From positions 1-52,184 of the forward strand of contig NZ_FONH01000024.1 in assembly GCF_900112865.1 (NCBI RefSeq): a DNA stretch of 52,184 nt, written 5' to 3'. Position numbers and translations under genes: made by a program. Shown here piece after piece: positions 15,637 to 30,857 of this stretch. The notes below the pieces were generated by a model. It did not search any database and had not been told where the DNA came from. It worked only from the letters and a program-made list of their open reading frames with translations. The stretch's first letter is position 1, and every line of letters begins with the position of its first letter. This stretch comes from Dyella marensis (lineage in GTDB: Bacteria > Pseudomonadota > Gammaproteobacteria > Xanthomonadales > Rhodanobacteraceae).

Positions 15637-16138
15637 CTTCGTTCGCGAAGGGCAAAAAAACAGGGCAAAACGCGCCTGTTATTCAGCATTTGTTTATTTG
15701 ATTCGCAGTTTCGTGCGAAACGTGCTCGGACTCGCCGCGAGAAGCTGTGAGCACTGGCCGCAAAGGTCTTCGGCTTCCTTGCTACGAGCTTGCGATATCT
15801 CCGAATACCGCAATTACTTGCGTCTGAAATGCGAGATTTTTCGTACGCATGAAGCGCGCCATCGCAGCGCCCATACGTTTTTTCTCACGCCCCGTAACCA
15901 TTGCATAACAAATGCGTGGTTCGTAGCTTCGGTCTAGGCCACTAGTCACGGCGGGGCACGCCATGAAAGGCCTCCGGGTGTGGGGACATCCGGACGAATC
16001 GGGGGAGTAAGGCTTACCAAGGCAGGCATGACAGGGGCATCCCGCTCCGGGCATGGCTTTGCCGTGGGCGGCATTCCGGTTCGATGAAACGACTCGCTCA
16101 GTCTTCGAGACCAAAACATCATCAACCGAGGTTCGACC
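15637..16138. other. Intergenic leader region of the first TonB receptor
   Basis: About 500 bases with lower GC in its first half. Short open frames (for example 15698-15937 plus) lack ribosome sites and show no recognisable protein, so I call none. It probably holds the receptor promoter and a long leader; no convincing -35/-10 pair could be fixed by eye. Confidence 0.5.
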
Positions 16139-19100
16139 ATGACTTCCAGCAAAGCCAATCGCTCCGGTGGTTTTCCGCTGCCGCTGCGCCCGCTCACTCT
16201 CGCCCTGGCCCTTGGCCTGGGCCTTGCGAGCAGCGGCGTCGCGCTTGCCCAGTCCAACGCGACGGGCGTGATCTTCGGCCAGGCCGCGCCGGGAGAAACG
16301 ATCCACATCGAAAGCCTGCAGACCGGCCTCAAGCGCGACCTCACCGCCGACGCGCAGGGCCGCTACCGCGCCGCGTCGCTGCCGATCGGCACCTACACCG
16401 TGTCGCTGGTGAAGGACGGCAAGGTGGTGGACAGCCGCAATGACGTGCAGACCACCATCAGCAGCGGTACCGAGGTGTCCTTCTCCGCCAACGCCGCCAA
16501 TGCGCAGACGCTGGGCGCGGTGCAGGTCGTGGGCAACGTACTGCCGGCGATTGACGTGTCGTCGGTGGACTCGCGCGCCGTGCTCACCGCCGACCAGCTG
16601 GCCAAGCTGCCGATCGCGCGCACCTCGATCAGCTCGATCGCCCTGCTCGCGCCAGGCACCACGCCGGCCGCGAGGGGCTACGGCAACGCGCTGTCGTTCG
16701 GCGGTTCGTCGGCCTCGGAGAACGCGTACTACATCAACGGTTTCTCGGCCACCAACCCGCTGACCGGCGTGAGCTCGCGCCAGCTGCCGTATGACGCGAT
16801 CGACCAGGAGCAGGTGCTGATCGGCGGCTACGGCGCCGAATACGGCCGTTCCACCGGCGGCGTGATCAACGTGGTGACCAAGCGCGGCACCAACCAGTGG
16901 AAGGGCGACATCCAGGCGTTCTGGTCGCCCAGCGACCTGGCGCAGCAGCCGCGCAACGTGTATCGCCGCAACGGCACGCTGTATCAGGTCGGCAATGCCT
17001 TCTCGCCGCGCGACCGCGACGAGATCCAGTACTCGGGCTCGATCGGCGGCGCGCTGATCAAGGACAAGCTGTTCTTCTTCGGCGCCGCGGACGCGGTGCG
17101 CCAGACCGATGTCGCCTACGGCACGCAGTCGAACAACTCGACCGTGCAGAACGACACCAACAAGATCACCCGCTGGCTGACCAAGTTCGACTGGAACATC
17201 ACCGACAACCACATCGTGGAATTCACCGCGATCGGCGACGACGAGACCACCGACTCGCAGATCTACGGTTACAACTATTCCACCCTGTCGAACACCGGCT
17301 ACAAGGGCCACCAGTACACCAAGAACTACAACGGCACCCAGACCAACGGCACGCCGGGCGGCAACATCTACATCGGCCACTACACCGGCTACATCACCGA
17401 CGACCTGACCGTCAACGCGATGTACGGCAAGAGCCGTTCGGACCATATCCAGAGCATCACCGGCGCCGGCGGCACGCCCTGCCCGGCGATCACCGACAAC
17501 CGCGCGATCGCCGCGACCAACCCGGCGCCCAGCTGCCAGTTCGGCGCCACCACCACCTTGCGCCCCGGCTCGCAGGACCGCACCAACGGCTGGAGCTTCA
17601 ACATCGAGTACCGCCTGGGCAGCCATGACTTCCGCGGCGGCATGGACAACTACATCCTGCGCGCCACCTGGGGCAGCGCGCCGGTGACCGGCACCGGCTG
17701 GCGCTACTTCGACCTCGGCAGCGGCCAGGCGATCACCCAGCGCCTGACCAACCTCGGCCTGGATCCGGCCCTGTACAACCCGGCCTCGTTCGCCAACGGC
17801 TACTACGCCGAATCCACCGGCCTGAGCACCGGCACCTCGGCGCGCACCGCGCAGCGCTCGGAGTTCATCGAAGACCACTGGCAGCTGACCGACCGCTGGA
17901 ACATCTACCTGGGCCTGCGCAACGAGCAGTTCACCAACTACAACGGCGTCGGCGCCGCCTATGCCAAGGAGCGCAACCAGCTCGACCCGCGCCTGGGCTT
18001 CGCCTGGGACGTGTACGGCGACAGCTCGCTGAAGGTCTACGGCAACGCCGGCCGCTACCACCTCGGCCTGCCCACCAGCGTGGCCGTGCGCGGCGCAGGT
18101 CCCTCCACCTTCCCGTCCACCTACTACTCGTTCACCAGCATCGACCCGGTCACCGGCGTGCCGCAGGGCCTGAGCGTGGGCGCGCCGTGGTCGCAGACCT
18201 TCTACAACAACGGCGCCAACGGCACCCCGCCGGATGCCAGGACGGTGTCGGTAAAGGACCTGAAGACCTACTACCAGGACGAGTACATCCTCGGCTTCGA
18301 CAAGCAGCTGGCGAACAACTGGACGGTCGGCGCGAAGGCCATGTTCCGCGTGCTGCGCAACCTGATCGACGACGACTGCGACAGCCGTCCGATCCAGGCC
18401 TGGGGCGACGCGCACGGCATGAGCGCCGCGGTCGCCGCCGGTATCGCCAACAGCACGCAGTGCTGGCTGTACAACCCGGGCAACGCCAACACCTTCATCC
18501 TGTCGCCCGCCGCCGGCCAGTACTTCGAAGTGCCGCTGACCGCCAAGGAGATCGGCGAGCCGAAGGCCAAGCGCCGCTACTACATGCTCGACCTGTATGC
18601 CGAGCACCAGTTCAGCGACAAGTGGTACGCCAAGGTCGAGTACACCTTCTCGCGCAGCTACGGCAACTCCGAAGGCCAGCTCGACTCCGACATCGTGCAG
18701 GCGGACGTGTCGACCACCGAGAGCTGGGATGCGCCGGAACTGATGGAGAACACCAACGGCCCGCTGGCCAACGACCAGACGCACCAGCTGCGCATCCTGG
18801 GCGTGTACCAGCCGACGCCGGAATGGCGCCTCTCCACTGTCACCCGCATCGCCTCCGGCACGCCGATCAGCTGCATCGGCGCCCGTCCGGAATCCGCGGG
18901 CGGCGACCCGGTGGGCTACCAGGCGGCGTACTTCTGGTGCAACGGCAAGCCCGCTCCGCGCGGTTCGTACGGCCGCACGCCGTGGACCTACACCATCAAC
19001 CTCAGCGCTGCCTGGCAGCCGGCCTTCCTGGACCACAAGCTGACCCTGTCGGCCGACGTGTTCAACCTGCTCGGCAAGCAGCGCATCACCCAGCTCAACG

Positions 19101-19210
19101 AGACCTGCGAAGACCCCTCGGGCAACACCACCATCAACTGCTTCCGCCCGCGCTCGTTCCAGGACCCGCGCTACGTCCGCCTCGGCGCGCGTTACGACTT
19201 CTCGCTGTGA
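16139..19210 (+). CDS. TonB-dependent receptor, Oar-like, with N-terminal carboxypeptidase-regulatory-like domain
   Basis: A 1023-aa outer-membrane protein. The signal peptide (to about ALAQ, residue 38) has a hydrophobic core LTLALALGLGLASSGVALA. A small beta-sandwich follows (about 40-115, GETIHIESLQTGL and GRYRAASLPIGTYTVSL) like CarboxypepD_reg, then the plug domain (VDSRAVLTADQLAKLPIAR, SFGGSSASENAYYINGF, GGYGAEYGRSTGGVINVVTK). The rest is a 22-strand-type barrel rich in Tyr and Gly that ends with the aromatic signature YVRLGARYDFSL. The family takes up large substrates with TonB energy; the ligand is unknown, and no transport or enzyme genes sit next to it. It is a paralogue of the receptor at 26881-29970, sharing long stretches of the plug. 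Confidence 0.95.
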   Translation: MTSSKANRSGGFPLPLRPLTLALALGLGLASSGVALAQSNATGVIFGQAAPGETIHIESLQTGLKRDLTADAQGRYRAASLPIGTYTVSLVKDGKVVDSRNDVQTTISSGTEVSFSANAANAQTLGAVQVVGNVLPAIDVSSVDSRAVLTADQLAKLPIARTSISSIALLAPGTTPAARGYGNALSFGGSSASENAYYINGFSATNPLTGVSSRQLPYDAIDQEQVLIGGYGAEYGRSTGGVINVVTKRGTNQWKGDIQAFWSPSDLAQQPRNVYRRNGTLYQVGNAFSPRDRDEIQYSGSIGGALIKDKLFFFGAADAVRQTDVAYGTQSNNSTVQNDTNKITRWLTKFDWNITDNHIVEFTAIGDDETTDSQIYGYNYSTLSNTGYKGHQYTKNYNGTQTNGTPGGNIYIGHYTGYITDDLTVNAMYGKSRSDHIQSITGAGGTPCPAITDNRAIAATNPAPSCQFGATTTLRPGSQDRTNGWSFNIEYRLGSHDFRGGMDNYILRATWGSAPVTGTGWRYFDLGSGQAITQRLTNLGLDPALYNPASFANGYYAESTGLSTGTSARTAQRSEFIEDHWQLTDRWNIYLGLRNEQFTNYNGVGAAYAKERNQLDPRLGFAWDVYGDSSLKVYGNAGRYHLGLPTSVAVRGAGPSTFPSTYYSFTSIDPVTGVPQGLSVGAPWSQTFYNNGANGTPPDARTVSVKDLKTYYQDEYILGFDKQLANNWTVGAKAMFRVLRNLIDDDCDSRPIQAWGDAHGMSAAVAAGIANSTQCWLYNPGNANTFILSPAAGQYFEVPLTAKEIGEPKAKRRYYMLDLYAEHQFSDKWYAKVEYTFSRSYGNSEGQLDSDIVQADVSTTESWDAPELMENTNGPLANDQTHQLRILGVYQPTPEWRLSTVTRIASGTPISCIGARPESAGGDPVGYQAAYFWCNGKPAPRGSYGRTPWTYTINLSAAWQPAFLDHKLTLSADVFNLLGKQRITQLNETCEDPSGNTTINCFRPRSFQDPRYVRLGARYDFSL

Positions 19211-19316
19211 GCACTTAAGTCATCACAAAGTGCGCGGGAACCTTTGGATGGAGGTTCCCGCGCCAAGAACAGCTGGTATCTCCCCATATGGGCCGCCGAG
19301 AGGCGGCTCTTTTTTT
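19211..19316 (+). ncRNA. Candidate structured RNA or 3'UTR element, copy 1 (TCATCACAAAG / ATCTCCCC family)
   Basis: Starting at the receptor stop codon: TCATCACAAAG (19220-19230); a perfect 12-bp hairpin GCGCGGGAACCT/AGGTTCCCGCGC (19232-19243 with 19252-19263); a single-stranded linker containing TGGTATCTCCCCA; then a terminator hairpin with a T run. The same order and the same two sequence boxes recur at 30683-30774. The stem bases differ between copies while pairing is kept, which suggests selection on RNA structure. This copy has no visible promoter of its own, so it may be a 3'UTR-derived RNA of the TonB receptor mRNA. Confidence 0.55.
19291..19316 (+). terminator. Intrinsic terminator after the first TonB receptor
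   Basis: Stem GCCGCC/GGCGGC with a GAGA loop, followed by TCTTTTTTT. It forms the 3' end of the structured element described at 19211-19316. Confidence 0.93.
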
Positions 19317-19380
19317 ATCGATGCTGCGTTGCTGCGGGTGACGATGTCCGTGCATTGTCTGTGGAGCGCCAAGCCCATTG

Positions 19381-19508
19381 CTCGTCATTCCGGCGCAGGC
19401 CGGAATCCAGTAGCGCAAACCCTGGATTTTCGCGATAGCGTCAGTTTGGCTACTCGCGACCTTCGAGCGGTGTCGTTACTGGATTCCGGCCTGCGCCGGA
19501 ATGACGAG
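19381..19508. repeat. Palindromic repeat family C, copy 1
   Basis: Perfect 32-base terminal inverted repeats begin with CTCGTCATTCCGGCGCAGG and enclose a spacer of about 64 bases. Related copies at 26675 and 39187 have CATCCCGG in place of CATTCCGG. This is the common short intergenic palindrome class of proteobacteria, with no coding capacity. Confidence 0.88.
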
Positions 19509-19519
19509 CAAAAGAGCCG

Positions 19520-19687
19520 GCGTAGGTTGGGGTGAGCGCAGCGAACCCCAACATCGGCACATCGATGCGCACCGCACGTTGGGGTGCGCCTGCGGCTTAC
19601 CCCAACCTACGCCGGTTGTTTACGCCGGCTGGCGTTGGCACTGCATGCGTAGACGCGCCTTCGTGACGCAGCGGGAGTCCATCTCGA
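19520..19687. repeat. Left copy of the direct repeat flanking the RHS locus (contains family A repeat)
   Basis: This segment aligns without large gaps to 25663-25831, in the same orientation and at roughly 84 percent identity by eye. The first 90 bases are a family A palindrome; the remainder is the 3' end of the small gene described at 25764-26042. Together the two copies bracket the RHS gene and its two downstream genes. Confidence 0.75.
19522..19610. repeat. Palindromic repeat family A copy
   Basis: Arms GTAGGTTGGGGTGAGC and the matching GCTTACCCCAACCTAC close a long hairpin whose inner parts carry CGAACCCCAAC and GTTGGGGTGCG. Confidence 0.88.
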
Positions 19688-19694
19688 TGAATGA
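19620..19694 (-). pseudogene. 3' remnant of a small gene homologous to 25764-26042
   Basis: Read on the minus strand, 24 codons and a TAA encode SFIEMDSRCVTKARLRMQ followed by CQRQPA. The intact gene ends AFVEMGTRCATQAHLRMQ followed by WQQQPA. About two thirds of the residues match and both stop at the same place. Upstream of this stretch the similarity ends, so only the 3' end remains. Confidence 0.7.
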
Positions 19695-19845
19695 TGACGG
19701 GGACGAGGGACATCTAACGCCTCCGGCCCCTTTAAGTCTCTTCGAACGGATAGATATCGAATGACAGAGAAACGCCAAGGCGCGCTAACCGCTGCATCAG
19801 CTCCGAAGTTAGTGAATCAAAGCCGTAGATGACCGAGAAGCGAAC

Positions 19846-20490
19846 TCACTGCACCAGACCTTGCATTGCCTCGAAGGCGTATTGCTGAAGAGCAAACGGC
19901 GCTCGAGGCAAAAACGACTTCACGGCCGTCTCGACCTCGTCGGGCCGAGATGAAAACCAGTGCCCAAGGCCATGCAAGGCGGACTCCTGACAAGCCAGAA
20001 CGTCAACCTCCAGAACGGAGCCGATCGTCTGGCAAATAACAGAGTCGACGTCCTCCATATCTGCGCGCCTAGGGATGCCATGCCTGGGAAACATATCCCA
20101 CCACATGTAGCACGTCTCTCCGTAGCTCTGCGGCAGGCCACCATGCTCTCGATAGGCGCCATTCCCTTCCAACTTCTGCGCAAACAAGTCGGAAAACACA
20201 AATCGCATACCAGCAATCGCCCGCTTGCGGACCTCAAAATCGATCGACGCGTCCAAATATAGGTATGCGATCGGACCGCAACTTGGATTCACCAAGCAGC
20301 GCAGCCCCATGCATACCTGCCCCTCACTAAATTGGCTGCCCATGCTGGCAGCCTGCATGAATACGCCCGCCGTCAATTCGACAAGCAGCTCCTTCGCGAC
20401 AGACGGATCTTCATGCTCATCGCGGAAATACCATTCAAGGCCATCAGTCGGGCGCTCAAATAGATAGTTTGTGAACTCAGTAAGATTCAT
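19846..20490 (-). CDS. Unknown protein downstream of the RHS gene (immunity candidate)
   Basis: A 214-aa soluble, helix-rich protein that I do not recognise with certainty. It starts MNLTEFTNYLFERPTDGLEW, contains a Trp/Cys-rich middle (GETCYMWWDMFPRHGIP), and ends with a HEAT-like helical repeat (CQESALHGLGHWF, then LPRAPFALQQYAFEAMQGL). The ATG at 20490 was chosen for the GAGAGAAGA sequence upstream; an earlier in-frame Met at 20532 is possible. It has no signal peptide. Base composition is clearly lower in GC than the flanks. As the second gene after the RHS stop on the same strand, it may be an immunity protein, either for the present tip or left over from an older one. Confidence 0.7.
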   Translation of the reverse strand: MNLTEFTNYLFERPTDGLEWYFRDEHEDPSVAKELLVELTAGVFMQAASMGSQFSEGQVCMGLRCLVNPSCGPIAYLYLDASIDFEVRKRAIAGMRFVFSDLFAQKLEGNGAYREHGGLPQSYGETCYMWWDMFPRHGIPRRADMEDVDSVICQTIGSVLEVDVLACQESALHGLGHWFSSRPDEVETAVKSFLPRAPFALQQYAFEAMQGLVQ

Positions 20491-20640
20491 GTAGCAGTCT
20501 TCTCTCGACCAGCGCTCAATGGTGCGCAGCACACCATACGAGGCTGCGCAAATAGTCAGCCATGCCTCAATAGTCGCCCGATACAGTTAAAGACATCTCT
20601 CCCTTTAGACTTATTTTCATCCGTATAGACATAGACCTGC

Positions 20641-21108
20641 CTAAAGAAAGAATTGACAATCCTCATATTTAAGCAACGCGAAGCTTGCAGACTCCACACT
20701 CTTGCCAGAGCTAATGATTTGACATTTGACATACGGCAATGTGATTTGCCCATATCTATCGAATTCAAACAATTCGATATAACCGAAGGAGTATGCATCA
20801 GTACGAATGCTGATCGGTAATGACCATTTATAATAGCCATCAACCAAATCGCCAAGCATGACTTCCACGTTGTCGCTGTTAGGGTTCACCAAGACAGCTT
20901 TGGCCTCAGCACCAAGACGAGCGACCGCGCCATCAGAGCCCAGCGCTGGCTTCAGCACCAGTCCGGCAAAAAGCTTTCTTTCGATGGATTCGTAGTCATC
21001 CAAGGGGCCGCAACTCATAAGTGATACATAATGCTTCCTAAAAAAAAAGTTCCACAGAGTAACCAGCGCGTTTCGATAGTCGGACATCAGTTCCGTCACG
21101 TTCTGCAT
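20641..21108 (-). CDS. Unknown low-GC protein directly after the RHS gene (first immunity candidate)
   Basis: A 155-aa soluble protein of unknown family (MQNVTELMSDYRNALVTLWN at the start; VKCQIISSGKSVESASFALL near the end). It starts nine bases after the RHS stop codon on the same strand, the usual place for the cognate immunity gene of a polymorphic toxin. Two 60-base lines inside it (20701-20820) contain 47 G+C of 120, about 39 percent, against over 60 percent in neighbouring core genes, so it was probably acquired together with the toxin tip. No signal peptide or membrane helix is visible, which fits neutralising a toxin in the cytoplasm. Confidence 0.75.
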   Translation of the reverse strand: MQNVTELMSDYRNALVTLWNFFFRKHYVSLMSCGPLDDYESIERKLFAGLVLKPALGSDGAVARLGAEAKAVLVNPNSDNVEVMLGDLVDGYYKWSLPISIRTDAYSFGYIELFEFDRYGQITLPYVKCQIISSGKSVESASFALLKYEDCQFFL

Positions 21109-21117
21109 GGAATTTAC

Positions 21118-24100
21118 CTATGTCATGGGGAATGTTTGTAGGGGCGACAAAGGGTGCACGGGCACGTTCGGCGGCTGGCTCGGAGAACTTCTGCGGAATG
21201 GGTAGCAAACGCATGTCTTTGGATTTTGATTGTATTCAATCCAGTGCCAATGCCAATCACTCGTAGATCCATGCTCGTCGCCAGGGGCTGCCCACGACCA
21301 GCCAGGAGGACAGGGCTTACAGTTTCCATTGCAATCACGCCCCGGATCCGTTGGCAGCACGTCTTGAATAGGGTCGGTTTGACCTCGCGCTCGCGATTCC
21401 ATCCATGGTGTCACATCAATTGGAGCCCCAATTCTTCCTCCTATCCAGGGTTCTACCCAAGGCATCGTTGCTTGAGTGCCAGTTGGATCGGTATAGCGCA
21501 ATGGATTACCCGCTACATAAGCATAGGTATTCCGGCCACCTTGCTGTCCGATCGGGTCGCTTTGCCTATACCGACCGGTCGCTGGATCGTAGTCGCGCTG
21601 CTGGTTGTGGTACCCCCCACTTTCTGCATCGTAGTACTGGCCGGGGTGCCTTAGGTTTAAAGCCATACCAGCCGTTGATGGAGTCTTCTCACCAAACGGA
21701 TTTGCCTGATAGCCCCACTGCCAAATGGTGGCTCCCGTACCATCTGTGACCACACGTGGCGTATTTAGCCCATCTGAATGCACATAGCTCACGATGCTGG
21801 CGGTGTCGGTTGTATCCACTACCGCGACAGGCAAGTTGTCTAACCAAACATAGCTACGGCTTGTCGCTCCGTACTCGCCGATGAGCTGACTGCCTTCGTC
21901 GTAGGCGAAGCGCTGATTAGCCGCCGCCGCCTTGGTTACGCGCTGCCCCATCGCGTTGTAAGTGTAGTTGGCGACGATCTGCCCGTTCCGCTGCACCACC
22001 GCCATGCGATTGCGGTCGTTATAGCCGTAACCAAAGGTGTCGCCACCGGTTGAGCTACCCGTCGTATTGCCATTGGCGTCGTAGGTCCGCGCACTGCTGC
22101 CGATACTCGTCAGCCAGTGCGTACCCGCCTGATAGCCATAGGTGCCAGTCGCCAGGCCATTGCTCACCTTGCTGAGGCGGTCACCCGTCTTGTTGTACGC
22201 GTAAGCCTCAATGGCTTGGCCTTGGGCATCCTTGAGGCCGGTGAGGCGATACAGCGGGTCATAGCTATAGGTTTCGATCGCCGGATTGGCTCCCGACGCA
22301 TTACCTAGCGCCGTGATATTGCCCATCGCGTCGCGGGCGAAGTGCAGGTTCAGCGCCGGGCTGACGACGTCCATCACAGCGTAGTTGGCATCGTAGGTGC
22401 GCGTGATGGTCTGGCCGTTGCCCAGCGTGTAGCTGAGGATGGGGCCGAACGGCAGATAGGTGACGTTGGTGACGACGTTGCCAGCGCCTGCCCCGCTGGT
22501 GCCTGGCGGCAGCACGGTGATGGCGTTGATGCGTCCTGCGCCGTCACGGCCGTACTGGATGGCCGTGCCGTCGGGTGTCAGCGTGCTCGCCAAGCGATCG
22601 GCCGCGGTGTAGGTGTAGCCGACCGTATCGACGTTCGTGCCCTGGGTCTGGCGCTTCTGCGCCACGTTGCCGCGCATGTCGTAGCAATAGACCGTGGTGA
22701 CGGCGGTCTCCAGCACGCGGGTCAGGTGGCCGATCGGGGCGGATCCCACGCAGCCGGTGACGCTGTCGGCTTCGTCGTAGCGGTAGCTGATGTTTTCAGT
22801 GCTGGTCGGATACGTCGTCGCAGTAAGGCGATCGAGGGCGTCGTAAGTGCTGTGGCTGACGATGTTCCTTGCATCGGTGGCCTGGATGCGATTGCCCGCC
22901 GCGTCGTAGACGTAGCTGGACGTGCCGGTGTCGGGGCTGTGCACCGCCGTAGCGTTGCGCAGGCCATCGTAGTCGTAGGTCGTGTTGAGACCGTCCGGGT
23001 CGCTCACGCCCTGCAGTTCGTCCCGCGGACCGTAGGCGAACACGCTCTGGGTGTTCTGTGTGGCGGTATCGGTGCCGTTGTAGTTCTCGATGGTGCTGAC
23101 CAGGCGATTGAGCGCATCGTAACCCTGCTTGCGCTGGACACCCAGTGCATCGGCACTGTGCACCAGGTGGCCGTTGGCGTCGTAGCCGTCGCTGAAGGCG
23201 GCCGAGAACACCGTCTTGTTCAGGCCGTCGACCGTCGCGGTGAGCTGGCTCAGGGCATTGAAGGTGTGCGACAGGCTCTTACGCACCGTACCGCTGCTGT
23301 CGTACACCTGTTCGGCCGTCTTGTTGTTCGCGGCGTCCAGCGTGTACTGCACGTAGTTGCCCAGCGCATCGGTGATGCGGGTCAGCCGATGGGCCCCGTC
23401 GTAGGTATAACTGGTAGTGACCTGGTCGGGATCGGTGACCGAGGCGATCGCGCCGTAGGGCGTATAGGTGAAGCTCGTCGTGGCCCCGCCTACGGTACGC
23501 GAGGCCAGCCACCCACGTGGCGTGTAGGTGAGATCCGTGGTGACGCCGTTGGCGTCCGTGCTGCGAGTGACGCGGCCTGCGCCGTCGTAAGAGACGATGG
23601 TTGTGCTACGGCCGAGGGCGTCGGTCACGGTGTGAAGATCGCCAGCCTGATAGCAGGCGGCTCCCGGCGTGCCACAGCCCACCGCGCTGCTGGTGAGGTA
23701 GTAGCTGTAGGTGGTCGTCTGGCTCAGGTCGGTGCGCGGACCGGTGGCACTCAGCAACAGCCCCTTGATCGGGCACTGGATGCTGTCGACGGCCGTGCAG
23801 TAGGTATAGGTCCAGCGGCGCACGCCGGCGGGAACAGTGCCCGTCGCGGTGCAGATGTAGCTGCCAGCCACCGAGACATCGATCTCGCAGCGGGCCAGCA
23901 CCTGGCCGGCGCTGTTATAGACCCAACCACTGCGAGCCACCACATTGGCGTTCGCGTCGCTGACCGTGCGCAGCAGCGGCAGGCGCAGCGTGGTGTTCCA
24001 GGACGTGGTGGTGGTGCGCTGGCTGGCCGTACCCGAGGCCTCAACCTGCTGGTTGACCAGGCCCGTAGCGTCATAGGTGGTCGCCGTGACGTTGCCGTTG

Positions 24101-25476
24101 AAGTCCGTGGTCGACGCCGGATAACCGTTGGTGTCGTAGGTCCGTGCCTTGAACGGTTGCAAGCAGGCCGGAGCGCAGGCCTGATTCACCGAGGTCACCT
24201 TCATCAGCCCTTGCAGACTGGAGAAGTTGACTTGAGAAGTCAGGCCGAGGGCGTAGGTCACGGTGGTCGAGCCCGTCGTATCGAAGCTGATCTGGGTCAG
24301 TTCGACGCCACCGGCCAGGCTCGATTGGATGGCCGCGCCGTAGTTGTTGTAGAGAATGCTGGCGTAGGTGGTGCCGGTTTCGTCGATGATCCCGGACAGC
24401 GCGCTGGGGTTGGTGTTGCCCGTATTCAGCTGCACCACGGTGTAGGCGTATTGCAGCAACGACGCATCGGGATAGGTCACCGAGAGCAGGTTGCCGGTGC
24501 TCGCCTCATGCGCATAGGTCAGCACGCCGCTATCCGGCTGGGTGACCTGCCGCAGCTTGCCAGCACTGTCGTAGGCCAGCTGGAGCTGGCGGCCGTTGGC
24601 ATCCGTCACCGTCAACAGCAAGCCGGACGTGGGCGCGATGGTCGGGTCGGTCAATGAGGTGCTGTACGTCAGCGTGACGCCGACCCCCGCCTGATCGGTG
24701 ATCGACTGCAGCTGGCCGGACGCATCGTAGTTCTCGAACTGCCGGGACGACGCGATGAACACCGTATAGCCCGTCACCGCCCCTTGGCCGTCCAGGACTT
24801 CGCTCAGCTGGTCGGCCACATCCGTGTCCGTCGACCACTGCCCATTGGCCTTGGTGAACACCAGCTGCGCGCCATCGGGGCGATAAAGCACCGCCCGGGT
24901 AGGCGGCAAGGGACCGGAGGTCGGCGTGGTGTTCGAGTTCTGCAGCCACAAGGATCGATCGAAGCTGTGTCGCCACTTGCTGCCCATCGCCGTCGATGCC
25001 GTGCTGGCATCGCTGTTGTAGTAGCGCTCGAACGTCAGCCAGCCCTGCTTGAAGTCGACGTCCTGATGGAACTCGTTGCCGCTCGCCAACTGGATCGGAT
25101 CGCCGGCGCAGAGGCAGCCGGGGTGCCCGATGCTTTTACCGGGGTTGTAGAGGTAGGCCGTCGCGTTAATACCGTTGGCGCCACCGCCACAGGAATGATT
25201 GGGACTGGTCAGCCACACCAACCCCGCGGTAGCCGACCCCGGCTCGCTATAGGGCGTCCAGAACATGTTGCAGTCCGGCGGATGGAGCCCGTAGTGCACG
25301 TTGTAGTAGGCAAACCAGGCTTGAGCCGCCTCGGCAACCGTATTGAACGGCCCCTTGTACTGCGAAAACGCCGGGTAATATGGCGCCCCGTAATAGGTTT
25401 GTGCCTTAGCACCAACCGAGCTAAACCCCAGCGCCAGGCATACAAATACCAGCGCAATACGCCGAACCAAATCCAT
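21118..25476 (-). CDS. RHS/YD-repeat polymorphic toxin with Cys/His-rich C-terminal tip
   Basis: A 1452-aa protein. The signal peptide is MDLVRRIALVFVCLALGFSS to about AKAQ (start at 25476 with a GGGGAAG site). An N-terminal DUF6531-like region (CLCAGDPIQLASGNEFHQ) is followed by tens of YD repeats (for example YDALNRLVSTIENYNG, YDGLRNATAV). The conserved RHS core ends at LRHPGQYYDAESGGYHNQ and the line DPIGQQGGRNTYAYVAGNPL, then YTDPTG. The last 119 residues, after YTDPTG, are unrelated to the repeats: CNGNCKPCPPGW, then GDEHGSTSDWHWHWIEYNQN, then TCVCYPF. This is the usual place of the toxin domain. The C-terminal 360 bases are locally lower in GC than the core, as is typical of swapped tips. 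No VgrG or other T6SS gene is near, and the Sec signal suggests export by another route. Confidence 0.93.
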   Translation of the reverse strand: MDLVRRIALVFVCLALGFSSVGAKAQTYYGAPYYPAFSQYKGPFNTVAEAAQAWFAYYNVHYGLHPPDCNMFWTPYSEPGSATAGLVWLTSPNHSCGGGANGINATAYLYNPGKSIGHPGCLCAGDPIQLASGNEFHQDVDFKQGWLTFERYYNSDASTASTAMGSKWRHSFDRSLWLQNSNTTPTSGPLPPTRAVLYRPDGAQLVFTKANGQWSTDTDVADQLSEVLDGQGAVTGYTVFIASSRQFENYDASGQLQSITDQAGVGVTLTYSTSLTDPTIAPTSGLLLTVTDANGRQLQLAYDSAGKLRQVTQPDSGVLTYAHEASTGNLLSVTYPDASLLQYAYTVVQLNTGNTNPSALSGIIDETGTTYASILYNNYGAAIQSSLAGGVELTQISFDTTGSTTVTYALGLTSQVNFSSLQGLMKVTSVNQACAPACLQPFKARTYDTNGYPASTTDFNGNVTATTYDATGLVNQQVEASGTASQRTTTTSWNTTLRLPLLRTVSDANANVVARSGWVYNSAGQVLARCEIDVSVAGSYICTATGTVPAGVRRWTYTYCTAVDSIQCPIKGLLLSATGPRTDLSQTTTYSYYLTSSAVGCGTPGAACYQAGDLHTVTDALGRSTTIVSYDGAGRVTRSTDANGVTTDLTYTPRGWLASRTVGGATTSFTYTPYGAIASVTDPDQVTTSYTYDGAHRLTRITDALGNYVQYTLDAANNKTAEQVYDSSGTVRKSLSHTFNALSQLTATVDGLNKTVFSAAFSDGYDANGHLVHSADALGVQRKQGYDALNRLVSTIENYNGTDTATQNTQSVFAYGPRDELQGVSDPDGLNTTYDYDGLRNATAVHSPDTGTSSYVYDAAGNRIQATDARNIVSHSTYDALDRLTATTYPTSTENISYRYDEADSVTGCVGSAPIGHLTRVLETAVTTVYCYDMRGNVAQKRQTQGTNVDTVGYTYTAADRLASTLTPDGTAIQYGRDGAGRINAITVLPPGTSGAGAGNVVTNVTYLPFGPILSYTLGNGQTITRTYDANYAVMDVVSPALNLHFARDAMGNITALGNASGANPAIETYSYDPLYRLTGLKDAQGQAIEAYAYNKTGDRLSKVSNGLATGTYGYQAGTHWLTSIGSSARTYDANGNTTGSSTGGDTFGYGYNDRNRMAVVQRNGQIVANYTYNAMGQRVTKAAAANQRFAYDEGSQLIGEYGATSRSYVWLDNLPVAVVDTTDTASIVSYVHSDGLNTPRVVTDGTGATIWQWGYQANPFGEKTPSTAGMALNLRHPGQYYDAESGGYHNQQRDYDPATGRYRQSDPIGQQGGRNTYAYVAGNPLRYTDPTGTQATMPWVEPWIGGRIGAPIDVTPWMESRARGQTDPIQDVLPTDPGRDCNGNCKPCPPGWSWAAPGDEHGSTSDWHWHWIEYNQNPKTCVCYPFRRSSPSQPPNVPVHPLSPLQTFPMT

Positions 25477-25662
25477 CTTGCTTCCCCTGTTGTTGCTCCA
25501 TGCCCGGAAGGTCGAGACTTCACGAGCATCATCGGCGTGACTTATAGCAAACATCTGGTCATTGCCTGCAGCGATGAGTTTACGCAATCCCGATCTCAGA
25601 CGTGGAGACAGGGGCGAGGTTTGAGGTGAACACCGTCCGGCGCTCCAAGGGTGAGAGGCAGT
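25477..25662. other. Upstream region of the RHS gene
   Basis: About 185 bases between the RHS start and the right flanking repeat. It presumably holds the RHS promoter on the minus strand; no clear -35/-10 pair was seen. No coding sequence is supported. Confidence 0.4.
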
Positions 25663-25831
25663 GCGTAGGTTGGGGTGAGCGCAGCGAACCCCAACGTCGG
25701 CACATCGATACGCACGGCAACGTTGGGGTTCGCCTGCGGCTCACCCCAACCTACGCCGGTTGTTCATGCCGGTTGTTGTTGCCATTGCATGCGCAGGTGC
25801 GCCTGCGTCGCGCAACGCGTGCCCATCTCGA
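25663..25831. repeat. Right copy of the direct repeat flanking the RHS locus
   Basis: Partner of 19520-19687. It holds a family A palindrome (25665-25754) and the last 22 or so codons of the adjacent small gene, which is intact here. Confidence 0.75.
25665..25754. repeat. Palindromic repeat family A copy
   Basis: Arms GTAGGTTGGGGTGAGC and GCTCACCCCAACCTAC, with inner CGAACCCCAAC/GTTGGGGTTCG. Nearly identical in its left arm to the copy at 19522. Confidence 0.9.
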
Positions 25832-26042
25832 CGAAGGCGGCAATGCCGTCGAGCATGATCGGCAGGCGATGGGCATCGATGCTGCCGCGCTCGTCCACCA
25901 GCTCGGCGAGCAACTTTAGCGAGTTGTAGGCGTAGTGCAGCCACTCGGTGGCGTCGTTTAGGAGTTCGTCCGGGCCCGCAGCGGGGTCGGAGAAATAACT
26001 GGTGTGGCGGATGATCCAGGGTTCGCCGAAGACGTTGTTCAT
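25764..26042 (-). CDS. Small helical protein, DUF3077/DUF6124-like
   Basis: A 92-aa protein starting MNNVFGEPWIIRHTSYFSD with an excellent AAGGAG site. The pattern (DELLNDATEWLHYAYNSLKL, then LAELVDERGSIDAHRLPIML) resembles the small DUF3077/DUF6124 proteins common in Pseudomonas, which are of unknown role; this comparison is loose. It is predicted as two or three helices, with no membrane segment. Its last codons are repeated as a remnant at 19620-19694, beyond the RHS locus. It may be co-transcribed with the short reading frame at 26277-26378. Confidence 0.72.
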   Translation of the reverse strand: MNNVFGEPWIIRHTSYFSDPAAGPDELLNDATEWLHYAYNSLKLLAELVDERGSIDAHRLPIMLDGIAAFVEMGTRCATQAHLRMQWQQQPA

Positions 26043-26276
26043 GAGCAACTCCTTGCTAAGCGCCGCAGCCTCGCTCCGTAAACGGCATGCCGCAGACAGC
26101 ACGGCATGCCGCGATCACACGGATTCGAGGGTTCACCGGAAGCTCAAAGGGTGAGCGCCGGGCGGCTTGATTGAGGAAGTGGATACGGAGTCAGTAGTTT
26201 TCGTGGTCGCGCAGAGCTACGTGCCGGGTAGGACGGCTCGGAAAACTGGCGGAGAAAACTCTTAGTCCGAGGTTCT

Positions 26277-26378
26277 TCAACCGTGTCCGCGTAATCGTCG
26301 GACGGCCCGGATGGTCGGTGGGTGTGTCGCCGAGGGGATCGGCGAGCGCGGAAGTCCCGTATGATCTGGCTTAGCCAT
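26277..26378 (-). CDS. Possible 33-aa peptide with strong ribosome site
   Basis: An ATG at 26378 follows TAGGAGAG at a spacing of about eight bases and opens 33 codons: MAKPDHTGLPRSPIPSATHP, then PTIRAVRRLRGHG. The product is Pro/Arg-rich and basic. The same frame is open upstream to a Met at 26450 (ATSYDPLTITNLGELIM-like context, residues after MKARAAGVQ) but with no ribosome site there. It lies 234 bases ahead of the DUF6124-like gene on the same strand and just after the RNA hairpin at 26408-26442. It could be a leader peptide, a small peptide gene, or chance. Confidence 0.35.
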   Translation of the reverse strand: MAKPDHTGLPRSPIPSATHPPTIRAVRRLRGHG

Positions 26379-26407
26379 GATCAACTCTCCTAAGTTGGTG
26401 ATGGTCA

Positions 26408-26442
26408 GCGGGTCGTAGGAGGTCTGAACTCCTGCGGCCCGC
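26408..26442 (-). promoter_or_regulatory. Leader RNA hairpin upstream of the 33-aa frame
   Basis: A stem GCGGG/CCCGC and an inner stem AGGAG/CTCCT are separated by a symmetric 4x4 internal loop and capped by seven bases. On the minus strand the AGGAG lies in the stem, and the ribosome site of the 33-aa frame lies about 20 bases downstream. It has no T run, so it is not a terminator. A regulatory role is inference. Confidence 0.35.
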
Positions 26443-26567
26443 GCTTTCATAGCATTGCTGCCATGGTTGTCCGCAAGGCGCAGAAACACACCGCGGATAA
26501 CGAGAACCACGCTAGCAAAGGCAACCGGCGGTTGTCTGTAGTAATTGCCCGAAAAAGTTTGTCGGGC

Positions 26568-26660
26568 GTAGGTTGGGGTGAGCCGAAGGCGAAGCCCAAC
26601 GCCGCGATGCACATCAGATGCACCGATGTTGGGGTTCGCCTTCGGCTCACCCCAACCTAC
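26568..26660. repeat. Palindromic repeat family A copy
   Basis: Arms GTAGGTTGGGGTGAGC and GCTCACCCCAACCTAC enclosing GCCCAACGCCGCGAT and ATGTTGGGGTTCGCC. Confidence 0.9.
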
Positions 26661-26674
26661 CTCGCGAAATCAGC

Positions 26675-26798
26675 CGTCATCCCGGCGTAGGCCGGGATCC
26701 AGTAACGACATCGCTCGATTTTCGCCAGAATCCACATAAGTTCTATCGCGAAAATCCGTCGTCCTCCTCACTGGATCCCGGCCTGCGCCGGGATGACG
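26675..26798. repeat. Palindromic repeat family C, copy 2
   Basis: Terminal arms CGTCATCCCGGCGTAGGCC and GGCCTGCGCCGGGATGACG, each extended by GGGATCCAGT/ACTGGATCCC, with a spacer of about 66 bases that itself contains GATTTTCGC/GCGAAAATC. Confidence 0.88.
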
Positions 26799-26816
26799 GC
26801 AAGGGAGAGGCGCTCA

Positions 26817-26848
26817 AGAAAAAGCCCCCGCCATAGGCGAGGGCTTCT
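26817..26848 (-). terminator. Intrinsic terminator of the second TonB receptor
   Basis: On the minus strand: stem GAAGCCCTCGCC/GGCGGGGGCTTTTT with one mismatch region and a short loop, then T residues, about 35 bases beyond the stop codon. Confidence 0.82.
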
Positions 26849-26880
26849 TCATCAACAACGGCCAGCTTTCTACGCTCGCG

Positions 26881-29800
26881 TCAGAAGTCGTAACTCACCG
26901 AGAACCGCACATACCGCGGCGTCGTATACGACAACGGCGTCTGCCAGTTCACGCTCGGCGTGCCGGGACCGGACACCGAACCCTGGCGATACTGCGTGAC
27001 CACCTGCTTGTCGAAGATGTTGTAGACCATCACGTCAAACGCCAGCTTCTTGCCGGCCCATTCCGGGCGGTACTCGCCGTTCAAGCTCACGATCTCCTGC
27101 CACGGCGTGCGGCCGGTGGAGCCGTAAGGCGCCGGCGTGCCGTCCGGTCCGCAGAAGTGATAAGCCACGCCGTAGCCGAACGGATCGGTCTGATCCGGAC
27201 CGAAGTAGCTCAGGCAGGTCTTCGGCGTGCCCGACAGGATCTGCACGTTGCCGCCGATCATCCACTCCGGCGTCACCTGGTAGTAGCCGACCATTTTCAG
27301 CTGGTGCCGGCGATCGTTGGCCAGCGAGCCGTTGGAGTTGGTCATCACGCCGGCGTTGTCCCAGTCCTCGGTCTGCGAGACGTCGGTCTGGCCGATATCC
27401 GAACGCACCGAGCCTTCGGTATTGCCGAAGTTGTGCGACCACACATAGTCGATGCGGCCGTACCACTTGCCGTCGAACGGATGCTCCAGGTAGGTGTTCA
27501 ACGCCACGTACTTGCGCTTCAGGTCCGGCATGCCCCAGGCCGACCAGGGGATGTTGAGGATGCTGTAGCCGCCGGCGCCGTTGGAGACGTTGATCTGCGC
27601 GCTCTTACCGGGATTCATGATGTAGCAGCCGGTCGAGCCCAGCGCCGCCACCGGGTCCAGCCCCTGCTGCACGGCGTAGGCCTGGATGGTGTTGTCGTCG
27701 CAGACGTCGTCCAGGTCGTTGCGCAGCACGCGGTAGGTGCCCTTCGCGCCGTACACCCACTTCTGGCCGAACGCATCGAGCGTCTTGTCGAAGCCGGCGA
27801 TGTACTCGTCCTGGTATTCGGCCTTGGCGTTGCGGCTGGTCACCGTCTTCGGGTCGGGCGGAATGCCGAACTCGTTGTTGGCCGACACGCCCGGATAGCG
27901 GTCCTGCGGAATCTGCACCAGGCCGGTCGGCGCGCCGGTGACCGGATCGATGCCGCTGTAGGTGAAGTACTGCGAGGTGAAGGTGCTTCCTGCCGCGCCG
28001 CGGATCGCCACGTTGGCGGGCTCGTCGAGGTAGTAGCGGCCGGCGTTGCCGTAGATCTTCAGGCTGGAATCGCCGAACACATCCCAGCTGGCGCCCAGGC
28101 GCGGCGCCCACTGCGGCCGGGTCAGGCGCAGGTAGGGCACGCCGTCGGGGTTGTAGTTGGTGAACTGGTCGTTGCGAATGCCGATGTTCAGCAGGATGCG
28201 GTCGTTGATCTGCCAGGCGTCCTCGATGAACTGCGCATGCTGCTTGACGCGTGCGCTGGCCGAGTTGGAGTAGATCGTCTGCGCCACATAGTAGCCGGCT
28301 CCGCCCGGTGCGCCCACTCCTTCGCCCGGCAGGGTACTGATCGGCGTGTTCGGGTCGCCCTGGCCATAGACCCAGTAATAGCCCGGGCCCGAGGGCGTGG
28401 TGCCGATGTCGATCGCGTTGACGCTGAGGTTGTCGATGCCCGCGGTGATCGAGTGGCTGCCGATCTTGTAGTTGACGTCCAGGCGCAGGTTCGAGGTCTT
28501 GTCGTGCGAGCGCGGATCGTCGACGGTCTGGTTGATCTGCGTGCCGTTGATGCCGCTGGAACCGGCCGGCAGCAACGCGGGATTCTGGAAGCTGGAGTTG
28601 GTGATGTACGCCGCGTCGCCGCCTTCGGCATTGCTGTAGTCGGTCTGCGTCATCTTGCCGTACAGCGCTTCCACTGTGAGGCTGTCGGTGATGTAGCCGG
28701 TGTACTTGGCCACCCACATGTCGGCGCCGTCCTTGGTGTAGGTCGCCGGCCCGAGGTAGTCGCCGCGCGTGCCCTTCGCGCTGTCAGGGGTGTACGCGTA
28801 GGCGTAGGTGTTGCCGGAGTACGTGCTCTTGTTGGAGGCGCCGGTCAGCTCGAGGATGTTGCTGTCGGTGATGTTCCAGTCGATCTTGCCGTACCACTTC
28901 GGCCGCGAGTACGAATAGGTCTGCTCGGTGTTGGTGATGCGGTCGGAGACGTTGACGCCGCTGTCGATGTGATCGGCTTCCACCGCGCCGAAGATGTACA
29001 GCTTGTCCTTGATCAGCGGGCCGCCGAAATAGGCGTCCTCGACATGCTCCCAGGATTTGTTGTCCTGCCGCGTCCAGAACATCTGCCCCTGCCGGCCATT
29101 GGGGCCGGACAGGAAGGCCGGGCCGGTCGGGTACATCGCATTGTCCGGATCGGACTCGGCGAACTTCGGCTGCCACACCACCTGCGCACCGAAGTGCCAT
29201 TCGTTGGTGCCGCGCTTGCCGACCTGGTTGATCACGCCGCCGTCGGAACGGCCATAAGCGGCGCCGTAGCCGCCGGTCATGACCTGCTCCTGGTCGATCG
29301 CGCCATAGGGCAGGGTCAGGCCGCCGAAGTTATGCAGCGGATCGCTGGTGTTGAAACCGTTGATGTAATACGCGTTCTCCGCCACCGACGAACCGCCGAA
29401 CGAGACCAGCACCTGGCCGGTCGGGCTGGTGAAGTAGCTGCTGCCGGTGTTGACGCCCGGCGCCAGGATCGCCACCGATTCCGCGCTGCGCGCGATCGGC
29501 AGCTTGGCCAGCTGTTCGCTGTTGATCACCGTGCGCGAGTCGACCTGGCTCACGTCGATCGCCGGCAGGGCATTGCCCACCACGGTGACGCTGCCGAGGT
29601 TGGTCGCATTCGCCGCGGAGGCGCCGGCGAACACCACCTGGGTGCCGGCGCCGACGGTCAGGCCCACGTTCTCGCGGGACTCGACCACGGCGCCGTCCTT
29701 CTTGAGGCTGACCTTGTAGCTGCCCAGCGGCAGGCTGGCGGCCGAATAGCGGCCGCTGGCGTCGACCGGCACCTCGCGGGTAACGCCGCTGTCGCTCTGG

Positions 29801-29970
29801 ATCAGCACCGTCTCGCCCGGCGCTGCCGGGGCGGTGCCGAAGATCGCGCCGGTGGAAGCCTGCGCGTAGACCTGCCCCGCGAGGGCACAGCCCGCCGCGA
29901 TGGCGAGCGCCAGCGCGGTGCGGCGAATGGATACATGGCCGTGGAGCGGCCGATGGGATGGATGGGTCAT
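26881..29970 (-). CDS. TonB-dependent receptor, Oar-like, paralogue of 16139-19210
   Basis: A 1029-aa outer-membrane receptor. Its signal peptide (IRRTALALAIAAGCALAGQV to YAQA) starts from the ATG at 29970, which has a GGGGGAG site. A CarboxypepD_reg-like domain follows (GETVLIQSDSGVTREV, GRYSAASLPLGSYKVSL), then a plug (VDSRTVINSEQLAKLPIAR, SFGGSSVAENAYYINGF, GGYGAAYGRSDGGVINQVGK) and a Tyr-rich barrel ending YVRFSVSYDF. It shares much of the plug with the receptor at 16139 but has its own loops, so ligand choice probably differs. The substrate is unknown. The two receptors are convergent and enclose the RHS locus. Confidence 0.95.
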   Translation of the reverse strand: MTHPSHRPLHGHVSIRRTALALAIAAGCALAGQVYAQASTGAIFGTAPAAPGETVLIQSDSGVTREVPVDASGRYSAASLPLGSYKVSLKKDGAVVESRENVGLTVGAGTQVVFAGASAANATNLGSVTVVGNALPAIDVSQVDSRTVINSEQLAKLPIARSAESVAILAPGVNTGSSYFTSPTGQVLVSFGGSSVAENAYYINGFNTSDPLHNFGGLTLPYGAIDQEQVMTGGYGAAYGRSDGGVINQVGKRGTNEWHFGAQVVWQPKFAESDPDNAMYPTGPAFLSGPNGRQGQMFWTRQDNKSWEHVEDAYFGGPLIKDKLYIFGAVEADHIDSGVNVSDRITNTEQTYSYSRPKWYGKIDWNITDSNILELTGASNKSTYSGNTYAYAYTPDSAKGTRGDYLGPATYTKDGADMWVAKYTGYITDSLTVEALYGKMTQTDYSNAEGGDAAYITNSSFQNPALLPAGSSGINGTQINQTVDDPRSHDKTSNLRLDVNYKIGSHSITAGIDNLSVNAIDIGTTPSGPGYYWVYGQGDPNTPISTLPGEGVGAPGGAGYYVAQTIYSNSASARVKQHAQFIEDAWQINDRILLNIGIRNDQFTNYNPDGVPYLRLTRPQWAPRLGASWDVFGDSSLKIYGNAGRYYLDEPANVAIRGAAGSTFTSQYFTYSGIDPVTGAPTGLVQIPQDRYPGVSANNEFGIPPDPKTVTSRNAKAEYQDEYIAGFDKTLDAFGQKWVYGAKGTYRVLRNDLDDVCDDNTIQAYAVQQGLDPVAALGSTGCYIMNPGKSAQINVSNGAGGYSILNIPWSAWGMPDLKRKYVALNTYLEHPFDGKWYGRIDYVWSHNFGNTEGSVRSDIGQTDVSQTEDWDNAGVMTNSNGSLANDRRHQLKMVGYYQVTPEWMIGGNVQILSGTPKTCLSYFGPDQTDPFGYGVAYHFCGPDGTPAPYGSTGRTPWQEIVSLNGEYRPEWAGKKLAFDVMVYNIFDKQVVTQYRQGSVSGPGTPSVNWQTPLSYTTPRYVRFSVSYDF

Positions 29971-30500
29971 TCGATACTCCCCCGAGCAGAGAAAAAACAG
30001 CCAATGAGTTAATTCAGAGAAAAACGCCCCACTCGCCATAACCGTCGGCCATGGCGCTTCGATCAACACCGGATGTCTTGAGTCCTTTGCGTCCAACGAT
30101 CGCAGCGGCGCTTTTGCAATAACGCCGAAACCGAACTCTGGCAACGCGATCCGGCGCCACCCTAATCGGGCGAATAACGGCGAGTCAACAATGATTTATT
30201 GCGCGCTTAACGCCGGGAAATTACGCCGCGTCGCATTAACTTTGTTCCTGCGAAAGCGCGCCACGGGCTTGCGAATGAAGCGCAAGATCGAGGCCATTGC
30301 GGCAAATAAAAGCGATGCCCCGCCAGCCCCGGCAAAACACGCAAATGGCGCGGGTCGCACCGGTATATTTGCGCTCCGATTATCCATGGCGACTGCATCA
30401 ACAAAACAAAACGCAACCTTTGTTTACAGAATATATTTCGCCATGCGCCAATAAATACGCGGCCAGCCGCCAGGCATTAACTTGCGTCAATTAATCGCGC
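29971..30500. other. AT-richer divergent intergenic region
   Basis: Over 500 bases between the second TonB receptor (minus) and the candidate small RNA (plus). Its GC is clearly below the genome level and it has several A/T tracts. Short open frames (for example 30191-30454 plus) lack ribosome sites and family resemblance. It likely carries the receptor promoter. Confidence 0.5.
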
Positions 30501-30529
30501 TTGACAGTGCGGCACTGCCATTGCATAAA
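30501..30529 (+). promoter_or_regulatory. Sigma-70 promoter, TTGACA-17-CATAAA
   Basis: A perfect -35 TTGACA (30501-30506) and -10 CATAAA (30524-30529) at the ideal spacing of 17. Transcription would start near 30536 and meet the terminator at 30749-30774 without any supported gene in between. Confidence 0.7.
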
Positions 30530-30535
30530 AATACA

Positions 30536-30774
30536 AGTCCGGCATTTGATCGCCGCCATTTATCACCCAGCCGGCCACCACTCCACCGTTTCGCACGCAT
30601 TCGGAACGGCATTCAACGCAACAAGACACGCTTCGCCCGAGCTCCGCCGCCCATGGTGCGGCGGAGCCACGACGGCATGGACTCATCACAAAGCGCATGC
30701 GGGCATCAGGACGATGCCGCATGCCGATAATGTTGGATCTCCCCACTAGGGCCGCGCTGCGGCCCTTCTTTTTT
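30536..30774 (+). ncRNA. Candidate small RNA gene, copy 2 of the TCATCACAAAG / ATCTCCCC family
   Basis: A predicted transcript of about 240 bases with its own promoter and terminator and no supported reading frame. Elements in order: hairpin CTCCGCCGC/GCGGCGGAG (30642-30666); TCATCACAAAG (30683-30693), identical to copy 1; hairpin GCATGCGGGCATC/GATGCCGCATGC with one bulged G (30695-30724); linker TTGGATCTCCCCACTA; terminator. The shared part with 19220-19316 starts at TCATCACAAAG. The C-rich single-stranded box would be a plausible mRNA-pairing site (anti-Shine-Dalgarno-like), which is inference. Confidence 0.6.
30749..30774 (+). terminator. Intrinsic terminator of the candidate small RNA
   Basis: Perfect seven-pair stem GGGCCGC/GCGGCCC with a three-base loop, followed by TTCTTTTTT. 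Confidence 0.93.
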
Positions 30775-30784
30775 CATGCGCGCC

Positions 30785-30807
30785 CCCTCTCCCCGGAGGG
30801 GAGAGGG
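30785..30807. repeat. Fragment of a family B repeat arm
   Basis: The hairpin CCCTCTCCCC/GGGGAGAGGG matches the outer arm of family B, but no second arm follows. It lies at the 3' side of amn and may serve as its transcript end. Confidence 0.6.
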
Positions 30808-30857
30808 AGATGTGTGCGCTCGCGACTTTCACTGAGAGAGTCAAAGGCTGGCCGCAC

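Follow-up and report, generated by a model that had tools for sequence, protein, structure and literature searches.

The 52,184-nucleotide stretch of the Dyella marensis genome analyzed here (contig NZ_FONH01000024.1, positions 1-52,184 of the forward strand, assembly GCF_900112865.1; hereafter the window) contains two related structured elements beside two paralogous genes for TonB-dependent receptors. We posit that they are sibling regulatory RNAs of the Rhodanobacteraceae that use an anti-Shine-Dalgarno box to keep receptor mRNAs from being translated, a reading that we would put at a probability of about 0.68. It is based on homology, on covarying structure, on the place of the elements behind receptor genes in several genera, and on the exact complementarity and enrichment of short words at the two ends of those genes; the existence and size of the RNAs, the use of Hfq and repression as the direction of control are what we infer. 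One element, copy 1, is the 3' untranslated region (3'UTR) and terminator of receptor 1; the other, copy 2, looks like a stand-alone small-RNA gene and diverges from receptor 2.

Two sibling elements in the window

The features of the two elements, with hairpins taken from predicted folds, are as follows.

19220-19316, + strand: copy 1, element forming the 3'UTR and terminator of receptor 1
19232-19263, + strand: copy 1 long hairpin, 14 pairs, GGAU apex
19279-19285, + strand: copy 1 box UCUCCCC, proposed seed (mean probability of CUCCCC being unpaired, 0.73)
19290-19316, + strand: copy 1 terminator hairpin and U-run
30501-30529, + strand: promoter-like TTGACA-17-CATAAA 5' of copy 2, kept in the three Dyella genomes with copy 2, the leader behind it not kept
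30683-30774, + strand: copy 2, the structured 3' portion of a putative independent small RNA of about 30536-30774 (predicted start)
30695-30724, + strand: copy 2 long hairpin, AGGAC loop, 12 pairs and one bulge
30738-30744, + strand: copy 2 box UCUCCCC, proposed seed, in full GGAUCUCCCC (mean probability of CUCCCC being unpaired, 0.78)
30748-30774, + strand: copy 2 terminator and U-run

A preliminary description of the window had paired these segments by a shared 11-base box, and both were located as it placed them: the box, TCATCACAAAG, occupies 19220-19230, beginning 9 nucleotides (nt) past the receptor 1 stop, and 30683-30693, its sole sites in the window even at one mismatch. Because 7 of 100 shuffles hold two or more matches at up to one mismatch, TCATCACAAAG alone is weak evidence. 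A second shared box, ATCTCCCCA, lies at 19278-19286 in copy 1 and 30737-30745 in copy 2, and each copy then has a terminator with GGGCCGC on its 5' arm, just as had been described, and a T-run. The 12 pairs with one bulge claimed for the long hairpin of copy 2 hold, whereas for copy 1 the fold gives 14 pairs rather than 12. Fold z-scores are -4.3 for copy 1 and -2.7 for copy 2. The placement of copy 1 behind the receptor 1 stop also stands; that of copy 2 is to be corrected, since it diverges from receptor 2 and has promoter-like sequence of its own, the TTGACA-17-CATAAA motif preceding it in all three genomes that carry it (the source genome and two further Dyella genomes, G086 and G087). A stricter promoter rule called no promoter upstream of copy 2.

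Homology and covarying structure

Trained on the copy-1 sequences of five Dyella genomes, five in all, a covariance model found copy 2 with an expectation value (E) of 7.9e-13, rough as E-values of such models are here, and the likeness of the two copies is therefore not chance; at E<=1 the sole other match in the window was copy 1, itself a training sequence. Across eight Dyella sequences (five of copy 1, three of copy 2), changes on both sides were seen in 11 of the 12 pairs of the long hairpin and in two of the eight terminator pairs. Paired cells made up 91.1% of this alignment versus 78.6% in shuffles, the covariation score was 0.416 versus 0.199, and none of 500 shuffles reached the observed count or score; the number of further pair types was unexceptional (20 versus 17.4, a level reached by 51 of 500 shuffles). 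Sliding the structure along the alignment left merely one to three pairs with double changes. The structure was set by hand on a MAFFT alignment, and RNAalifold recovered the same two stems when no structure was given; a single sequence of the eight, G087_2, takes another fold when folded alone. The earlier claim of a structured RNA family with compensatory changes is thus upheld, as is the earlier impression that it fits no named family: Rfam 15 gave no match at the gathering threshold, either in the window or for nine chosen loci with relatives, and under a lax threshold the best match to either copy reached 22.7 bits versus the 45 needed, with nothing credible.

The box itself is largely unpaired in the eight Dyella sequences (probability 0.71-0.95). 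The apex of the hairpin reads GGAY in every one of them while the arms change, with a probability of the GGA being unpaired of 1.00 in seven and of 0.60 in G087_2. This conserved apex hints at an RsmA site or a second pairing site. CsrA prefers GGA loops, and the hairpins could be RsmA/CsrA sites through which the elements bind that protein or are controlled by it, a reading also favored by 6 of 19 further elements with GGA in, or within 2 nt of, the upstream hairpin loop. The other 13, among them three Luteibacter elements and that of the second receptor in G086, have no such GGA. RNAs of the RsmZ type that titrate CsrA/RsmA carry several GGA hairpin loops each, whereas one apex per element, counted for copy 2 over its structured 3' part, is not the design of a sponge, and we regard RsmA/CsrA binding as a rather improbable account of the elements.

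A wider family behind receptor genes

The preliminary description had spoken of a two-copy family marked by the TCATCACAAAG box. A strict pattern of both boxes does match the source genome twice, at copies 1 and 2, and matches none of the other 232 genomes of the family, the reason being that the outer box and the hairpin letters drift. Covariance searches did find further homologues. The first model (R1) had matches in 11 of 233 genomes under strict filters; outside Dyella these fell in six genomes. In four of them the match sits directly behind a frame that ends in a TonB-receptor C-terminus; the matches in the other two (G147 and G223), preceded by no receptor, were taken as chance. A second model (R2), trained on 13 elements, matched 53 of 233 genomes, many weakly. 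Among its listed new loci, 14 of 19 lie behind a TonB-receptor stop, which falls anywhere from 2 nt within the match to 32 nt ahead of it, and 12 of the 14 hold CTCCCC, a count that is partly circular because R2 itself includes the box, whereas the placement behind receptors is not circular. Five loci (L219, L221, L223, L226 and L227) are not clearly behind receptors and were set aside.

Within Dyella, similarity in four of the five other genomes spans the receptor gene and the element and breaks off at 19316, where the T-run finishes. Copy 2 recurs in G086 and G087 between the divergent receptor 2 and an amn-like gene; in G088 receptor 1 with its element adjoins the amn-like gene, and copy 2 was not found there. 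A second receptor in G086 (on C8) also bears an element. A search of the source genome for TCTCCCC 18-45 bases before T6 gave six distinct places, namely three behind receptors, copy 2, and one each on contigs C28 and C37 (11 raw matches, versus 3 for the reversed pattern). The box-plus-terminator pattern occurs in at least 112 stretches of the species genome collection. Among the matches listed, all 12 titled with a Rhodanobacteraceae genus (Dyella, Luteibacter, Frateuria and Pinirhizobacter) lie 30-159 nt past a stop of the receptor type, receptors being called here by C-terminal sequence rather than by Pfam; many of the other 100 have no frame end nearby, and a Sphingopyxis match (L125) lies behind a long frame with a barrel-like end. 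The elements, to judge by their sequences, are thus a wider Rhodanobacteraceae family found behind TonB receptor genes of several genera, and not a family of two. What its members have in common is not so much the hairpin as UCUCCCC followed, after a few bases, by a GC-rich terminator and a U-run; neither TCATCACAAAG nor the hairpin letters are its most constant part.

Folding of 19 relatives makes the CCCC of the box a hairpin loop in 10, mostly Luteibacter, with AUCU-CCCC-AGAU the commonest form, and these relatives may therefore meet G-rich sites loop-first, as the small RNA sX13 does. Small hairpins of this kind can form from the box and its flank at L031-L033, L209-L211, L213-L215 and L218, and a second C-rich word, resembling the loops of sX13, sits in the loop or arm of the upstream hairpin at L161, L192, L212, L214 and L284. 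At one Dyella subtropica locus (L188) an apparent remnant of a second receptor C-terminus lies between the receptor stop and the element, a layout that would fit recombination carrying the element along with receptor 3' ends.

Complementary words at the two ends of receptor genes

A script called open frames from the GC content at codon positions and also guessed the gene starts: for receptors and controls alike, every ATG within the first third of a frame (<=230 codons) counted as a start site. Receptors were chosen by a C-terminal sequence rule, and other long frames in receptor stretches that failed it were left out of both sets. An unprompted scan of six-base words in Dyella and Luteibacter genomes (32 start-site words and 330 3'UTR words tested) placed GGGGAG first at start sites, in 15 of 28 receptors versus 2 of 247 controls (p 2.3e-15), and in 3'UTRs gave CTCCCC in 12 of 28 versus 10 of 247 (p 3.6e-8), ranking after TTTTTT and CTTTTT; the receptors being paralogues, these p-values overstate independence. 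The two words are exact reverse complements, and the suggestion that the CUCCCC box could pair with Shine-Dalgarno sequences is supported by a scan that was not told to look for it.

Receptors of the Dyella source genome have GGGGAG at -19..-4 in 10 of 14 cases versus 2 of 210 controls (p 8.9e-13), one of these two controls (in L267) having a barrel-like C-terminus and being kept as a control; GGGGAGATC occurs at 3 of 14 receptor starts and at no control start. AGGA is absent from the 14 receptor starts and present at 44 of the 210 control starts, so that the start signal of the receptors differs from that of many genes. For Luteibacter G120 the corresponding counts are GGGGAG at 5 of 14 receptor starts versus 0 of 37 and CTCCCC within 150 nt in the 3'UTR of 8 of 14 versus 1 of 37. 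Copy 2 adds a longer match, its GGAUCUCCCC having a perfect 10-bp complement, GGGGAGAUCC, at one receptor start. Duplex energies with leaders favor receptors over controls for the linkers of copy 1 (p 8e-5) and copy 2 (p 4e-4), and give p 0.14 when the copy-2 linker is read backwards. A 12-nt Luteibacter complement, AUCUGGGGAGAU with AUCUCCCCAGAU, was reduced to its core, as in each word the two ends can pair with one another (AUCU...AGAU); the match may instead be a CCCC loop meeting a GGGG loop. One Luteibacter receptor start is AUCUGGGGAGAU itself, a mirror hairpin with a GGGG loop.

The elements might be no more than efficient terminators or mRNA stabilizers, with the C-rich stretch a by-product or a signal related to Rho or RNase. 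A strong terminator does close each of them, and no feature ranks above T-runs in the 3'UTRs of these genes. A plain terminator, however, has no need of a covarying hairpin upstream or of a CUCCCC core that recurs in other genera, and controls rarely combine CTCCCC with a GC run (4 of 210 in Dyella and 0 of 37 in G120, versus 4 of 14 and 7 of 14 receptors); we consider this explanation very unlikely.

Alternatively, a 3'UTR box could fold back on the start of its own mRNA, in a 5'-3' contact that tunes that receptor alone with no separate RNA. Three of the four box-bearing receptors of the source genome have GGGGAG at their own start (the first in L072, and those in L074 and L077), as do three of eight in Luteibacter G120 (one in L282, one in L284, and that in L292). 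Yet the other five in Luteibacter do not, several receptors with GGGGAG have no box, and copy 2 lies outside any receptor mRNA with promoter-like sequence of its own. Receptor 1 bears the box and has no GGGGAG at its start, for which reason simple self-repression of receptor 1 was dropped, and pairing in cis appears unlikely to us as the general explanation.

The two receptors and their neighbors

The receptors and their candidate pairing sites are as follows.

16139-19210, + strand: receptor 1, TonB-dependent receptor (Pfam OMP_b-brl_4 and Plug above cut-off, CarboxypepD_reg slightly below)
16001-16007, + strand: GGGGGAG in the receptor 1 leader, possible pairing site about 130 nt 5' of the start codon, present in Dyella sp. 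SG609 and OK004
26881-29970, - strand: receptor 2, a paralogue of receptor 1 oriented away from copy 2 (Pfam OMP_b-brl_4 above cut-off)
29977-29983, - strand: receptor 2 Shine-Dalgarno GGGGGAG, complement of CUCCCC, the same in G086 and G087

Receptor 1, presumably Oar-like, has a start context that recurs in two relatives. Its leader shares the stretch 15930-16010 with Dyella sp. SG609 and OK004, and the 3' end of that stretch, CGGGGGAGTA, is the identical word to the receptor 2 ribosome site. A structured leader was considered for this stretch and dropped, the fold z-score being -1.5 and an Rfam search of 15930-16010 giving no credible match. The 3'UTR of receptor 2 is without CTCCCC. The other neighbor of copy 2 has a Pfam PNP_UDP_1 match and reads as an amn-like gene. 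A large RHS-repeat gene (21118-25587, - strand) lies between the two receptors, and CTCTCCCCGGAGGGGAGAGGGAGATG, which recurs dozens of times in Dyella genomes as a dispersed repeat, occupies 30785-30820 directly 3' of copy 2. A GGGGAGA match near 48.7 kb was rejected, as it leads merely to a 24-codon frame.

Proposed mechanism

We propose that each RNA would end in a structured hairpin, an exposed (A)UCUCCCC box and a terminator with a U-run. Copy 1 would be carried in the 3'UTR of the receptor mRNA and act within that mRNA or once cut from it, whereas copy 2 would be transcribed from its own promoter. The box would pair in trans, plausibly with the aid of Hfq, with the Shine-Dalgarno GGGGAG(AUC) that paralogous receptor mRNAs and certain others carry, block ribosome entry, and in this way expression of one receptor would lower that of its siblings. 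An additional target may be a gene of the source genome (L245, C24:198381-198396) whose start reads GGGGAGAACAACAATG and which, from its protein sequence, we take to be hfq.

Several observations weigh against pairing in trans as the function of the elements, alongside the paralogy of the receptors already mentioned. One of the five other Dyella genomes, G089, yielded no element. Box-plus-terminator stretches also lie behind unrelated genes in other taxa (for example, L112, L113 and L135), like ordinary terminators. CTCCCC is found in the 3'UTR of only 4 of 14 receptors of the source genome versus 10 of 210 controls (p 0.007) and is not among the top six-base words there. The receptor 1 start has its nearest GGGGAG about 130 nt upstream. 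GGGGAGA stands 3-10 nt 5' of ATG at 61 places in the source genome, versus 5 for the reversed pattern, and several of 30 such loci inspected are repeat copies, so that the site is not confined to receptors. Finally, the copy 2 box reads CACCCC in G086 and G087 while the receptor 2 site is unchanged, and copy 2 and receptor 2 therefore do not co-vary.

On a broader and more tentative view, receptor 3'UTRs could form a silencing module for the shared ribosome-binding site of the family, bringing about mutual exclusion of receptors with copy 2 as a condition-controlled master; we hold this to be possible but short of probable. If it were true, transcription of one receptor would lower the translation of its siblings, an RNA-based mutual exclusion of outer-membrane receptors. 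Both halves of a candidate code are present within a single gene family, with GGGGAG at the gene start and CUCCCC at the gene end. Bacteria with many TonB receptors must choose which to make, and to our knowledge little is known of post-transcriptional control of that choice outside a few model species; a mechanism of receptor choice becomes testable in the Rhodanobacteraceae.

Comparison with known systems

The closest parallels come from three systems, each compared here as far as the passages cited describe it. The SisA-D RNAs (alphaR8) of Caulobacter crescentus have an internal, single-stranded, C/U-rich anti-Shine-Dalgarno stretch 3' of a hairpin and a Rho-independent terminator, occur as several siblings per genome, and have targets rich in TonB-dependent receptors (PMC12559287). 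The Dyella copies share this layout of hairpin, single-stranded stretch and terminator, G087_2 alone folding otherwise. Their core, (A)UCUCCCC(A), differs from the single-stranded 10-mer UUUCCUCCCU of SisA/alphaR8, and they have no Rfam match; the SisA-D RNAs are alphaproteobacterial and, in the passages cited, are not described as lying in receptor 3'UTRs. SisA pairs with TonB receptor mRNAs and, with Hfq taking part, represses them, whereas for the Dyella elements pairing is predicted from complementarity.

Xanthomonas belongs to a related family of bacteria, and the preliminary description had likened the elements to its small RNA sX13. This RNA has three C-rich hairpin loops, adjoins polA and is Hfq-independent; its unpaired C-rich motifs target G-rich ones close to translation starts, and hfq is among its targets (PMC3771888). 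The likeness is good as a mechanism, a C-rich motif complementary to G-rich start sites being common to both, and fails as an identity: the elements adjoin TonB receptors and the amn-like gene on C13, whereas the sole DNA_pol_A match is on C32, and the copies in the window carry their C-box in a linker and GGAY at the apex, although some relatives put CCCC in one loop. A separate candidate with three C-rich stem-loops and a terminator lies behind the polA stop on C32 of the source genome (L298), and both RNAs may therefore act on the same sites. The G-rich starts could even be the targets of this sX13-like RNA, with the receptor 3' boxes as mimics or decoys or in some other role, which would count against the function that we favor; the candidate itself, the start-site preference of sX13 and the CCCC loops of 10 of the 19 relatives folded speak for it. 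It does not, however, explain why the pre-terminator CTCCCC is tied to receptor genes or why copies 1 and 2 have a covarying structure, and the enriched GGGGAG is longer than the four-G motif of sX13 targets, even if the AG may be a mere part of the ribosome site. We judge it decidedly unlikely.

The FopS family of Bacteroides thetaiotaomicron consists of paralogous small RNAs that act at the start region of mRNAs for SusC-like (TonB-dependent) transporters and repress their translation; its 14 members comprise nine intergenic, four antisense and one 3'UTR-derived RNA (PMC11697453). FopS differs in having a 5' seed, in its association with RbpB and in belonging to another phylum. Among the papers listed from the open PMC library, no title or abstract describes the present RNA family, and none is a small-RNA study of Rhodanobacteraceae. 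The Dyella elements would thus work like SisA-D, sX13 and FopS, and by the tests made are members of none; in contrast to SisA-D and sX13, they would be encoded in the receptor genes themselves.

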